Below are positions 1 to 17,366 of a DNA stretch of 21,434 nt, one piece after another. The position numbers and the translations under genes are program-made. The first letter of the stretch is position 1, and each line of letters starts with the position of its first letter. The stretch is taken from IMG/VR virus record IMGVR_UViG_3300040808_001895, positions 1-21,434 of that record; one strand, given 5' to 3'. This DNA is from a virus. The notes beneath the pieces were generated by a model. That model ran no database searches and was not told the DNA's origin. It worked only from the letters and a program-made list of their open reading frames with translations.

Positions 1-123
1 GAAGACGATTTCTTGGAAACTGCTAAGACCAACCCCGAACTGATGGGCAACGCCCTGAAAGAGTTCTTGGAGTCCTTACCGAAGGTTGAGAACAAGGAAG
101 GGGGAAAGGAGGAAGCGGACTAA
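1..123 (+). CDS. Tail assembly chaperone, short form (gpG-like), 3' end only
   Basis: The first 40 codons visible are the C-terminal tail of a protein that begins before the window. The end is Lys/Glu-rich and stops at a TAA at 121-123. I identify it by position and by the frameshift signal it carries: it sits directly before the tape measure gene and contains a lambda-type slippery heptamer a few codons before its stop, as in the lambda G gene. In lambda-like siphophages the short protein coats the tape measure and brings tail tube subunits to it during tail assembly; it is not part of the finished virion. Only the C-terminus is visible, so no domain can be checked. Confidence 0.7.
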   Translation, partial: EDDFLETAKTNPELMGNALKEFLESLPKVENKEGGKEEAD

Positions 124-425
124 CCTTCGACAAGGCTGAAGCCCTTTGGTGTGGTGACCTGGGCCTCCCGTTAGAACGCTTCTATAATACCACATTCAAA
201 GAGTTCATCTATCGTCTAGAGGGGGTGAATAGGCGTATGGCTAGGGAAGATGATCGTTGGAGGAATATGATGGCTGCCTTAATTAACCCACACGTCAAGA
301 AGCCCGTTAAGGCCAAGGACATTCTAGAGATACCACTTATAGACGGTGACCCCAAGAAACCAGCTATTTCCTTTGAGGAGCAAGCCAAGGTCTTAGAGGC
401 GTGGAATAAGGGGCAAGAAGGGTAA
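1..425 (+). CDS. Tail assembly chaperone, frameshifted long form (gpGT-like), 5' partial
   Basis: A -1 shift at 102-108 joins the upstream frame to a second frame that I read as open from 108 to the stop ending at 425, adding about 105 residues. The added part begins GGSGLTFDKAEALWCGDLGL and ends with EEQAKVLEAWNKGQEG. A GTG at 225 could be an internal start, but it has no spaced ribosome-binding site and the frame is open well upstream of it, so translation by frameshift explains the region better. In lambda the T extension recruits tail tube protein while the G part binds the tape measure. The gene ends 15 bases before the tape measure ATG. Position, slippery site and open -1 frame all agree; the extension itself shows no family I recognise. 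Confidence 0.72.
102..108 (+). other. Programmed -1 ribosomal frameshift site (GGGAAAG)
   Basis: In the upstream reading frame the heptamer is read G GGA AAG, which is the X XXY YYZ pattern and identical to the slippery site of the lambda G/T genes. It lies four codons before the zero-frame stop. A short inverted repeat, CCTT-CGAC-AAGG at 124-135, lies 15 bases downstream and could be a weak stimulator; I did not find a strong hairpin. Confidence 0.8.
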
Positions 426-7094: not shown

Positions 7095-7115
7095 AAAAAG
7101 ACCCCGAAGGGTCTT
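7092..7115 (-). terminator. Rho-independent terminator of the leftward operon
   Basis: Read on the minus strand this is AAGACCC, a TTCG loop, GGGTCTT and then a run of T. The seven-base stem is perfect (7098-7104 with 7109-7115). The U-run is only on the minus strand, so it should stop leftward transcription; in the plus direction the hairpin is followed by AGTGACG and would be weak. It sits exactly between the converging gene blocks. Confidence 0.85.
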
Positions 7116-11894: not shown

Positions 11895-11902
11895 CAAAGC
11901 TA
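11895..11902 (-). promoter_or_regulatory. TAGCTTTG promoter box of the accessory operon
   Basis: Perfect match to TAnnTTTG on the minus strand, 18 bases before the ATG at 11876. The region 20-30 bases upstream is T-rich (it is the U-tract of the tail-tube terminator) without a clear TTTG. It is the only candidate start for the long leftward operon. Confidence 0.6.
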
Positions 11903-11918
11903 ATGTAAATAATTGGAT

Positions 11919-11943
11919 AAAAAAAAAGGAGGCCGAAGCCTCC
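11919..11943 (-). terminator. Rho-independent terminator after the tail tube gene
   Basis: On the minus strand: GGAGGC, TTCG loop, GCCTCC, then nine T. It lies 24 bases after the stop of the tail tube gene and should isolate that gene from the accessory operon, whose promoter follows within 20 bases. Confidence 0.88.
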
Positions 11944-11966
11944 CTTAAACAAATACAGAAAACTAA

Positions 11967-12383
11967 TTAAGGAGCAACCCCAAGAGTGAGCGCACCAGTA
12001 ACACGGAAAGACATAGATAGGTTAACCGCTGAATCAATGCTAGCAGTAATGTTCATAGCAGTAATGTAGCAGCTTCCTGAAATCTGAAAGTCACCTGGAT
12101 CGGTTCCACCGTAAACGAAGGTTAAGATAGTACCAGACTTTTGGTCAGCCATCAGAGTGGTAAGGTTTGATCCGTCAGACTCAAGGTGGAAATCAGCGGA
12201 AAAGTCAGCGGAACGAGTTCCAGCTATACCCGTATAATCTCCATTCCCTTCGTAAGAAGTGGTATCAATCTCGTTAGTAGTGATGTTCATTGCCGAACTA
12301 ACCACCCCAGCGATTGCCGCATTCGTTGCTGGTGTTGCTGAATCAGTTTGAATACGGACATAAAGCCCATCCATCTTAGCCAT
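11967..12383 (-). CDS. Probable major tail (tube) protein
   Basis: A 138-residue protein, Thr/Ser/Ala-rich and beta-rich, that looks like a small tail tube subunit of the TP901-1 major tail type: it starts MAKMDGLYVRIQTDSATPAT, has SAMNITTNEIDTTSYEGNGD and RSADFSADFHLE in the middle, and ends SMSFRVTGALTLGVAP with the SITGSC-like strand before it. Tube subunits stack as rings around the tape measure. It is encoded opposite to and far from the other tail genes, alone, with its own TATATTTG promoter and terminators on each side, as expected for a protein needed in very high copy. The ATG is supported by the promoter 21 bases upstream. I have no structure search to exclude another virion protein. 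Confidence 0.7.
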   Translation of the reverse strand: MAKMDGLYVRIQTDSATPATNAAIAGVVSSAMNITTNEIDTTSYEGNGDYTGIAGTRSADFSADFHLESDGSNLTTLMADQKSGTILTFVYGGTDPGDFQISGSCYITAMNITASIDSAVNLSMSFRVTGALTLGVAP

Positions 12384-12404
12384 TTCAAGTCTTTTTGATT
12401 ACCA

Positions 12405-12412
12405 CAAATATA
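12405..12412 (-). promoter_or_regulatory. TATATTTG promoter of the tail tube gene
   Basis: Perfect TAnnTTTG on the minus strand, 21 bases before the ATG at 12383. Its first T and A form part of the U-tract of the terminator just upstream, so stop and restart of transcription are fused. Confidence 0.7.
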
Positions 12413-12431
12413 AAAGGGGGCCAAAGCCCCC
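12412..12431 (-). terminator. Rho-independent terminator after the recombination operon
   Basis: On the minus strand: GGGGGC-type stem (12431-12426 with 12421-12416), loop TTTG, then TTTTATATTTG. The stem is six G-C pairs. The U-run is short but the stem is strong. It ends transcription from the ssb operon before the tail tube promoter. Confidence 0.75.
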
Positions 12432-12516
12432 CTATAAACTCAAACCCCCACGGGCTGCAACCCTGTCACTCCCCAATGTTTAGACTATGCAAACCTACAA
12501 AAGGGCGTGATGGTGG

Positions 12517-12684
12517 TTATGAGTTGAAGTCTGCTACGGTTATAGAGTCGGGGTCTGTCCCACTTATTGGGAAGTCGGCTCTTTGTCCAAGGTCGGGGTC
12601 ACTAAAGTAGTAACGCCCATCATACTGGAAGTAAAGTAGCCCGTGATTGTTAACCCTCATTCTAGTGTTTTTAGGAATGTCCAT
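12517..12684 (-). CDS. Small hypothetical protein after ssb
   Basis: A 55-residue frame (MDIPKNTRMRVNNHGLLYFQ, then YDGRYYFSDPDLGQ) with an acidic C-terminus (DPDSITVADFNS). It starts three bases after the ssb stop, so it is translationally coupled. It looks like a compact beta-hairpin protein; I know no family. The 85 bases between its stop and the terminator hold nothing I can identify. Confidence 0.6.
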   Translation of the reverse strand: MDIPKNTRMRVNNHGLLYFQYDGRYYFSDPDLGQRADFPISGTDPDSITVADFNS

Positions 12685-12687
12685 AGC

Positions 12688-13020
12688 TTAGAACGGTAGT
12701 CCGTCTGAGGATTCACTTGCACCCCCTTTGCTTTCGGAACCCATAAAGGTCAGCGTGTCCACGGCTAGGTTTAAATAACCCTTATCACCTTTCGCACTTA
12801 CCCAAGGTTTTCCGCTGACGGCTACCTTAATTGACTTGACATCCTTAAAGAAGGGCCATAGCTTTTCCGCTCTTACCCCATACATCGAACAACTAACCCA
12901 AGCGGTTGAATCTTTACCCGTCTTAACGGCTATTGAGAAAGACAAACGGCACGGCTTATCCCCCATTGCTTCCGTGAACTTGTGTGTTGCTGAGTTACCA
13001 GCACAATTAAGATTTAGCAT
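12688..13020 (-). CDS. ssb: Single-stranded DNA-binding protein
   Basis: A 110-residue protein with the layout of a short phage SSB: an N-terminal OB-fold (FSIAVKTGKDSTAWVSCSMY, AEKLWPFFKDVKSIKVAVSG, GYLNLAVDTLTFMGS), a Gly/Ser linker and the C-terminal tip SSDGLPF, which resembles the SSB interaction tail (DDDIPF). It would coat single strands during replication and recombination and recruit partners through the tip. The ATG follows an A-rich leader without a Shine-Dalgarno sequence. It is third in the operon after Erf and exonuclease. Confidence 0.85.
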   Translation of the reverse strand: MLNLNCAGNSATHKFTEAMGDKPCRLSFSIAVKTGKDSTAWVSCSMYGVRAEKLWPFFKDVKSIKVAVSGKPWVSAKGDKGYLNLAVDTLTFMGSESKGGASESSDGLPF

Positions 13021-15006: not shown

Positions 15007-15014
15007 TACTTTTG
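15007..15014 (+). promoter_or_regulatory. TACTTTTG promoter directly before the tail terminator gene
   Basis: TACTTTTG, CCCT, ATG at 15019. Same motif and four-base spacing as at 441 and 19067. It decides the start of the following gene. Confidence 0.62.
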
Positions 15015-15018
15015 CCCT

Positions 15019-15474
15019 ATGCGACAGACTACCGATATAATGCGTTTGGTACACAATGCAATTAGAACCGTCTTAAACGCCAATGGTCAGAGTTCCGTAG
15101 CTATCCAGTATAGCCGAACCAACGTCAGCGACCTTGACAAGTACGTTTATATAGATATAGGTGGCGCAGATAGAACGGGTTCACAGACTGACCTGAGTTA
15201 TGACTATACGATTACCACGGGAGTGATCTTCTACGAAACTAGCCCAGCGTACTCAGTCACTAACCATAACACTTTAATTGACCTGGTGTATAAGGCTTTC
15301 CAAGACACCACCTTAACGGGCGAAATCCACAACGAGGCTAGAACCCTAGACCTAGAACTAGAGAGCGTTAGCGATCTTGGGGCAAGTAAGGAGCAGACCC
15401 GAAGCGATGATGGTAGGTATATAGTCCGCTATCTAATGGACTTCAACCTTCGTATGAACCTAACTGCTAGCTAG
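15019..15474 (+). CDS. Probable tail terminator / tail completion protein
   Basis: A 151-residue protein (MRQTTDIMRLVHNAIRTVLN). The order of elements, an N-terminal helix, YVYIDIGGADRTGSQTDLSY, a YTITTGVIFYETSP strand, a helix NHNTLIDLVYKAF and a final DGRYIVRYLMDFNLRM strand, resembles the DUF3168/gpU-like proteins that cap the tail tube and join it to the head. The match is by pattern only. A frame from 14938 would add 27 residues, but the promoter box lies inside that extension, so I start at 15019. It is apart from the main tail block, as is the tail tube gene across the divergent region. Confidence 0.5.
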   Translation: MRQTTDIMRLVHNAIRTVLNANGQSSVAIQYSRTNVSDLDKYVYIDIGGADRTGSQTDLSYDYTITTGVIFYETSPAYSVTNHNTLIDLVYKAFQDTTLTGEIHNEARTLDLELESVSDLGASKEQTRSDDGRYIVRYLMDFNLRMNLTAS

Positions 15475-15853: not shown

Positions 15854-17082
15854 ACCTAGAAGCCTCTTTAGTTGGGTTACTGATTAACGACCCAGCGGCA
15901 ATAGATAGCGTTAGGATAGAACCCGAATGGTTCGAAGACCCTACTTATTTTAAGATTGTCAAGGCTTGTAAAGACACAAGGGCAAAAGGAAGCTATGAGG
16001 ACTTGGTGACATTGGGTAAGAGATTCCCCGACCAGGTCACAACCTTAGTAGAACTTTCCAAAAATGCACCGTTTCGGGTCGATGTTATCCCCTACGCCAC
16101 CCTAGTTCAAGAGGACTTCATTAAACGGCAAGCCCAACGGGTAGGACAAGACCTAATTCAGACCCAAGACATAGAGGGGGTTTTTAAGGCTTCTAACGAC
16201 ATTAACCAACTTCTTGAAGGTAGCACACCCCAAACCACTAAGACGCTCTTAGAACTAATGAACGTGGCGTTAGAACGGATAAAAGACACGTCTATGGGCG
16301 CACCCACGGGGAATAGCGTTCTAGATGGGGTCTTGAATGGCTTAAAAGGTGGGGACTTGAGTGTTTTGGCGGCACGTCCAGCAATGGGTAAGACTGCTTT
16401 CGCTATTGAAACTGCCGTGGCTTCGCAGTCAAAGGGCCGTGTTCTGTTCTTCTCTTTAGAGATGCCTAGCGACCAACTAATAAAAAGGCTTTGGGCCAAC
16501 ACTAGGGAGGTTGAAATGAAGGAGGTTTTTAGTTCTAGCCCTGACGTTAGCAAGCTTCAGAAGGCTATGATCAAAAGTGAAGGCTATAAGATTGAGGTTT
16601 TAGAGGATTATGTGTACGTTGAGGACATAGCTAGTAAGGTAGCCAAGGAAAATAGGAGGGGAGATGTTGCGCTCGTGGTGGTTGATTACTTACAACTAGC
16701 CAAGACAAGGCAAAAGACCAACAACCGAGAAAGGGAGGTAGGGGAAATGTCTTGGGCGTTTAAGATGATAGCTAAAAAGAACAACCTTCCCGTTTTACTC
16801 TTATCCCAACTTAGCAGAGCCGTAGAAAGCACCGAAACAAAAGAACCCGATAGCCACCACCTAAGAGATTCAGGAAGTATAGAACAAGACGCTTCGGTTA
16901 TTATAATGCTTTATAGGTCAGTAGTTTACGGCATTCAAGAAGATGGGGAATACTTCGACTTAATAAAGGTCACCAAGAACAGAAACGGGGAAACTGGACG
17001 CATTAAGGGGAGTTATTTCGATGGACGATACCAAAGCTGGAGTGGAAAAACTTTCAACGAAGGAAAAGACCCACCCTTTTAA
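15850..17082 (+). CDS. dnaB: Replicative DNA helicase, DnaB family
   Basis: A 410-residue hexameric helicase. Residues 1-105 are the DnaB N-terminal helical domain (MNLEASLVGLLINDPAAIDS); the RecA-like motor follows with Walker A ARPAMGKT (175-182), FFSLEMP after it, Walker B VVVDYLQL (D279) and LLSQLSRAVE, then the H4-type QDASVIIMLYR and an arginine-rich end. It unwinds DNA ahead of the phage fork. It starts with an ATGA overlap to the loader gene and ends 17 bases before the next ATG. The length is slightly under bacterial DnaB, as usual for phage forms. No primase is seen in the window, so host primase may be used. Confidence 0.93.
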   Translation: MNLEASLVGLLINDPAAIDSVRIEPEWFEDPTYFKIVKACKDTRAKGSYEDLVTLGKRFPDQVTTLVELSKNAPFRVDVIPYATLVQEDFIKRQAQRVGQDLIQTQDIEGVFKASNDINQLLEGSTPQTTKTLLELMNVALERIKDTSMGAPTGNSVLDGVLNGLKGGDLSVLAARPAMGKTAFAIETAVASQSKGRVLFFSLEMPSDQLIKRLWANTREVEMKEVFSSSPDVSKLQKAMIKSEGYKIEVLEDYVYVEDIASKVAKENRRGDVALVVVDYLQLAKTRQKTNNREREVGEMSWAFKMIAKKNNLPVLLLSQLSRAVESTETKEPDSHHLRDSGSIEQDASVIIMLYRSVVYGIQEDGEYFDLIKVTKNRNGETGRIKGSYFDGRYQSWSGKTFNEGKDPPF

Positions 17083-17087
17083 GTGGC

Positions 17088-17095
17088 TATATTTA
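17088..17095 (+). promoter_or_regulatory. TATATTTA promoter-like box before the terminase block
   Basis: TATATTTA, GGCT, ATG at 17100: one mismatch to TAnnTTTG, with the four-base spacing. It would start transcription of the 88-residue gene and the terminases. Confidence 0.45.
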
Positions 17096-17099
17096 GGCT

Positions 17100-17366
17100 A
17101 TGGAGGTAGAAGACTACTTGGAGGCTATGCGGTTGATCAAACTAATCGACCTGACCCCTGAAGACTACCTAGACCTTTCGGCTAGCCACGTTCTTCTTTA
17201 CGATGAGTTTATTGAATGGCTCAAGGACTTCATACTTTCCCACGAAACCACCAGCTATCAGCTTCAGATGATTGAAGACCTTATGGAAATTAGGGCGTAT
17301 GACGCTATTGCTGAACTATTTTTACCGAAGGACAACGAGCAGTTAAGTATTTACGACATACTTTGA
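17100..17366 (+). CDS. Hypothetical acidic protein upstream of terminase
   Basis: An 88-residue, acidic, helical protein (MEVEDYLEAMRLIKLIDLTP, YQLQMIEDLMEIRAYDAIAE). No family recognised. It lies 17 bases after the helicase and overlaps the next small gene by four bases (TTGA), so it can be made with either the replication or packaging genes. Confidence 0.65.
   Translation: MEVEDYLEAMRLIKLIDLTPEDYLDLSASHVLLYDEFIEWLKDFILSHETTSYQLQMIEDLMEIRAYDAIAELFLPKDNEQLSIYDIL

Follow-up and report, generated by a model that had tools for sequence, protein, structure and literature searches.

The window analysed here is the whole of a linear virus record of metagenomic origin (IMG/VR IMGVR_UViG_3300040808_001895, 21,434 bases). 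Its left part encodes on the plus strand the end of the tail chaperone, followed by the tape measure, tail tip, fibre and lysis genes, and its right part carries the DnaB, terminase, portal and MuF genes, also on the plus strand. A minus-strand block from 14651 to 7138 contains the ERF recombinase, SSB-like, DnaA C-terminal-like, NinG and metallophosphoesterase genes. The major tail (tube) protein gene is located within this block, with SSB on one side and m11520 on the other. The original prediction placed the tube gene away from the tail block, and the gene is indeed found on the minus strand inside the recombination and replication genes. It was also described as inverted, which is true relative to the tail genes, whereas the gene has the same direction as both of its neighbours. 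The segment from MuF/portal to the chaperone is outside the window, and its content was deduced from relatives. Comparisons were based on 14 IMG/VR contigs with the same tube gene, all metagenomic and from various samples. A TerL alignment scanned against 84,980 bacterial and archaeal genomes revealed no relative; assignment of the host to the Bacteroidota is therefore tentative and based on the promoters and the nearest TerL. At the left edge of the window (1-425), the end of the chaperone gene has an in-frame lambda-type slip site, GGGAAAG, at about 102-108, after which the -1 frame is open to 425, making a programmed -1 frameshift in the tail chaperone likely.

The minus-strand gene was predicted to encode the major tail protein, and searches with its 138-aa product agree. 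Its PHROG matches are 1407 (major tail protein, 3.6e-10) and 10528 (1.4e-6), and its score against Pfam PF06199 (Phage_tail_2), 24.4 bits, is narrowly above the curated cutoff of 23.8; the match to NF047353 is under its own cutoff. The AlphaFold model has low confidence (pLDDT 57); its fold matches are mostly tail tubes, including those of SPP1, lambda, NF5 and GTA (gene transfer agent), and Z up to 8.8. The nearest match beyond its own group is the tube protein of a sister group, with 28% identity (2e-17). A tblastn search of 50,697 phage records with this protein and the sister tube gave zero matches. From these sequence comparisons, the open reading frame 12383-11967 is assigned as the major tail (tube) protein gene.

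Table 1. Positions of the tail genes, hairpins and promoter boxes in the window
Feature	Position	Strand	Remarks
Major tail (tube) protein gene	11967..12383	minus	138 aa; PHROG, Pfam, fold list, sister-group homology
Intrinsic-terminator-like hairpin upstream of tube gene	12414..12433	minus	8 pairs, 6 GC; would close the recombination-gene unit
-7 promoter box TATATTTG	12405..12412	minus	fits Bacteroidota TAHHTTTG consensus (PMC6847099)
Predicted 17-nt mRNA leader AATCAAAAAGACTTGAA	12384..12400	minus	inferred; +1 = 4 nt past the -7 box (PMC6847099 rule)
Intrinsic terminator downstream of tube gene	11925..11946	minus	9 pairs, then long T run; kept in relatives
TAGCTTTG, possible -7 box of next minus-strand unit	11895..11902	minus	conserved; third-position G deviates from TAHHTTTG
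Third strong terminator	7098..7115	minus	end of minus-strand gene block
TAnnTTTG-N4/5-ATG gene starts	429, 14663(-), 15007, 15511, 19055, 10891(-)	plus unless marked (-)	pattern scan
Tail terminator protein gene	15019..15474	plus	151 aa; AlphaFold model pLDDT 75; Foldseek, VIA
TACTTTTG box, leaderless type	15007..15014	plus	exactly 4 nt ahead of tail terminator ATG

The tube gene is flanked by two hairpins, as expected from the predicted terminator upstream and strong terminator downstream. Folded alone, the upstream hairpin has an energy of -17.5 kcal/mol (z -2.4 vs. shuffles) and the downstream hairpin, which ends in the long T run, one of -14.4 kcal/mol (z -3.2). On the minus strand of the window, only one further terminator-like hairpin, at 7115-7098, matches these two in strength; the other hits of the scan in the rest of the window are weak, and the total counts are close to the shuffled expectation. 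Both flanking hairpins have a GC-rich stem and a U run. The T tail of the upstream one is interrupted (TTTTATATTT), so termination at this position may be partial.

The -7 box of Flavobacterium johnsoniae reads TAHHTTTG, transcription begins 4-5 nt later and the -33 element is faint (PMC6847099), this element being rated weak in Flavobacterium (PMC6847099). The claim of a perfect promoter for the tube gene is borne out for the -7 box, TATATTTG, which fits the consensus, but a -33 TTTG at the usual spacing is missing; none was found at 17-24 nt ahead of any box in the window. By itself, TATATTTG is no rarity as an 8-mer (3 occurrences vs. 0.9 expected). Because of the box-to-start spacing rule (PMC6847099), the transcription start was placed at 12400, from which the leader would be 17 nt and the transcript about 480 nt long, a correction of the about 450 bases originally proposed. 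With its flanking hairpins and its own box, the tube gene looks like the single-gene transcription unit that had been envisaged.

The hairpin, box and start are retained in all 14 relatives (14/14). The upstream stem is likewise kept in 14/14, with variation chiefly in the loop. A run of 30 consecutive bases from the 3' arm of the hairpin through the box and leader is invariant in 10 aligned sequences, in a comparison where about 45% of the four-fold sites vary (30/66 in the tube gene, 22/47 in ssb). The order SSB-tube-m11520 on one strand is found in the 14 tube contigs wherever both sides are covered. The DNA from SSB to the hairpin is replaced between relatives, and in several of them it folds into a further hairpin. 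This segment (12434-12690, SSB stop to tube hairpin) contains a 55-codon open reading frame in the window, L002 and L008, and otherwise a short hairpin of one of two unrelated types.

Comparisons of the structural gene blocks showed that the usual slot of the tube gene is empty in the same group. The gene order in the 30.5-kb contig G014 is protease, capsid, small gene, Ad1, Hc1, Ne1, chaperone and tape measure, with a 4-nt overlap of Ne1 and the chaperone. Altogether, 13 contigs of the group span Ne1 to the chaperone (G014, G012, G004 and ten more), all without a tube or a tail terminator gene at this junction, and Ne1 and the chaperone abut or overlap in most of them. In each of G014, G012 and G004, a single molecule combines the junction lacking both genes with the relocated tube gene. 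A second tail-tube gene between the portal and the chaperone, which would have spoken against the original prediction, was not found in the relatives: the Ne1-to-chaperone junction has none in the 13 contigs, and the structural block of L016 has no other PHROG or Pfam tube match. The tube gene of this group (13 contigs) is thus not directly before the chaperone, a position that is usual and not required for function.

The tail terminator gene has moved as well, which goes beyond the original prediction. The product of 15019-15474 has no PHROG or Pfam match. The best Foldseek match of its model reaches 4.4e-7, with many terminators among the matches, and the model superimposes on lambda gpU (Z 13.6, 127 residues, rmsd 2.6) and T5 p142 (Z 13.2, VIA). 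On the basis of the modelled gpU fold, this protein is assigned as the tail terminator, also displaced from the tail block. Its gene likely starts at the ATG at 15019, right after TACTTTTGCCCT. Similarity to the sister protein in the terminator slot is weak (22% over 77 aa), with a non-significant hhalign result. A tail terminator match in L079/L080 was rejected as spurious, being weak and overlapping the phosphoesterase N terminus. Compared with the window, L012 (2006-4480), L011 and L015 have an insert of about 2.4 kb between p15524 and the tail terminator gene.

The sister group consists of uncultured phages (L052-L075, L107-L114) with TerL about 54% identical. Their genes are all on the plus strand in the order Ne1, glycosyltransferase-like gene, 178-aa protein (terminator slot), tube, chaperone and tape measure, and the tube gene overlaps the chaperone start. 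The outgroup L117 has the usual order of terminator-slot protein, tube, chaperone and tape measure, and the outgroup L115 has the tube followed by the chaperone and tape measure. Thus, the gene order in relatives, a check suggested with the original prediction, has the tube gene outside the usual slot in the 13 contigs of its own group that cover this slot and in the usual place in the sister group. Since the sister group and two outgroups keep the tube in place, the displaced position is, by gene order, the derived state. The between-group identity of the tube (28%) is close to those of the neighbouring head-tail genes Ad1, Hc1, Ne1 and TAC (24-27%), which fits and favours vertical descent over import.

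The sister tube gene is preceded, within roughly 115 nt, by a hairpin with a T run, a TAATTTTG box, an 18-nt A-rich leader and the ATG. The box positions are nearly equal, at -31 in the sister group and -29 in the window. The presence of these elements at an in-place tube gene indicates that the insulated start signals are probably older than the move and were not created by it. The downstream terminator is present only in the relocated form, and the sister tube has none. Elsewhere in the sister contig L069, the conserved 249-aa glycosyltransferase-like open reading frame between Ne1 and the terminator slot (16551-17300) was named by eye only. The m11520 homologue (1649-2026) is encoded on the plus strand and diverges from ERF/exonuclease, in the type of spot that the tail terminator gene occupies in the window. 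This region has apparently undergone more than one rearrangement. Contigs of a third group (L048-L051/L074/L076-L080) stop short of the tail genes. Parabacteroides phage PM708P3 was discarded as a comparison, being distant, with another module order and no PHROG-recognised tube among the proteins scanned.

The pattern TAnnTTTG followed by 4-5 nt and ATG occurs at six gene starts, compared with 0.4 expected in shuffles. The copies at the portal, tape measure, tail terminator and m14307 genes are retained in most relatives, and near-matches (TAnnTTTA/TTAG) are located ahead of the fibre, p17100 and Ad1 genes. As the start-site rule of 4-5 nt after the box lands on the ATG at the six starts, several operons of this phage seem to begin with leaderless mRNAs. 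Such mRNAs account for only 5.5% in F. psychrophilum (PMC9723704). Unlike the portal, tape measure and tail terminator genes, the tube gene is predicted to have a leader. Of all genes in the window, it has the codon usage most similar to that of the capsid gene (0.484, others 0.27-0.48). This hints weakly at strong expression, and high expression of the tube is plausible.

We propose, with a probability of about 0.8, that the tube gene forms its own transcription unit and left the head-to-tail block of a Bacteroidota siphophage for the recombination/replication region, either jointly with the tail terminator gene or in the course of the same history. The RNA of the recombination genes (m14307, ERF, exonuclease, SSB) would stop at the hairpin 12433-12414, and RNA polymerase would restart from TATATTTG, at about 12400. 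The product would be a single-gene mRNA of roughly 480 nt with the 17-nt leader and an end at 11946-11925, and the next unit, from m11520 onward, would use its own box. The dose of tube protein would thus be uncoupled from the tail operon and from the early operons. A more far-reaching reading, in which the gene forms an insulated, portable cassette that needs its own promoter for translation, with tube dose and timing set apart from those of the other tail genes, is rather unlikely. It draws on predicted folds in which read-through RNA pairs the -7 box region with the start codon and the own-start mRNA would leave the start free: the start codon is predicted to be unpaired at 10-26% in read-through RNA vs. 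72-92% in own-start RNA in 9 of 10 sequences, with a weaker contrast for the window copy (70% vs. 91%).

The gene could instead have been moved by a chance rearrangement, the hairpins and box merely sustaining expression at the new place with no special dose or timing. Other gene moves in the same region, such as that of the sister m11520 homologue on the plus strand, keep this explanation in contention, although it is not the one we favour: the terminator, box and leader are present in the sister group, where the gene has not moved, and their layout is unlike the leaderless type of the tape measure, portal and tail terminator genes and therefore looks gene-specific. Some phages encode two or more tube-like proteins, and the 138-aa protein might be a second or auxiliary one, with the true tail-tube gene elsewhere. 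This is very improbable given the empty slot in 13 contigs, the lack of another PHROG or Pfam tube match in the L016 structural block and the fact that its closest match outside the group is the sister tube in the usual slot. Every contig is metagenomic, but identical junctions in 14 contigs from different samples with normal divergence leave almost no room for an assembly artefact as the source of the unusual order.

Few features of long-tailed phages are as steady as the order of tail terminator, tail tube, chaperone and tape measure, from which genes are named. The structural genes of this group can be compared with the HK97/lambda-type siphophage module (portal, protease, capsid, Ad1, Hc1, Ne1, tail terminator, tail tube, chaperone with frameshift, tape measure): the same families are present in otherwise the same order, with no part missing and a lambda-type slip site in the chaperone, whereas the tail terminator and tube genes are out of their slot, on opposite strands, flanking the recombination genes. 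Compared with the sister group, the tube is homologous and the hairpin, TAnnTTTG box and A-rich leader are directly upstream in both, whereas the sister tube is in the standard place, overlaps the chaperone start and lacks the downstream terminator. The -7 box and its spacing resemble those of Bacteroidota sigma-A promoters (TAHHTTTG, PMC6847099, PMC9723704); however, the -33 element is not evident, and several other boxed phage genes have leaderless-type starts. A search by title and abstract in the open-access literature yielded no account of a phage whose major tail gene is displaced; as evidence of absence, this is weak. For annotation, a tube gene absent from the usual slot does not mean that the tube is absent. 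With both tail genes outside the block and unmoved in relatives, the two states offer a natural before-and-after comparison, in which one can ask if assembly depends on the gene order or if the order affects dose alone.
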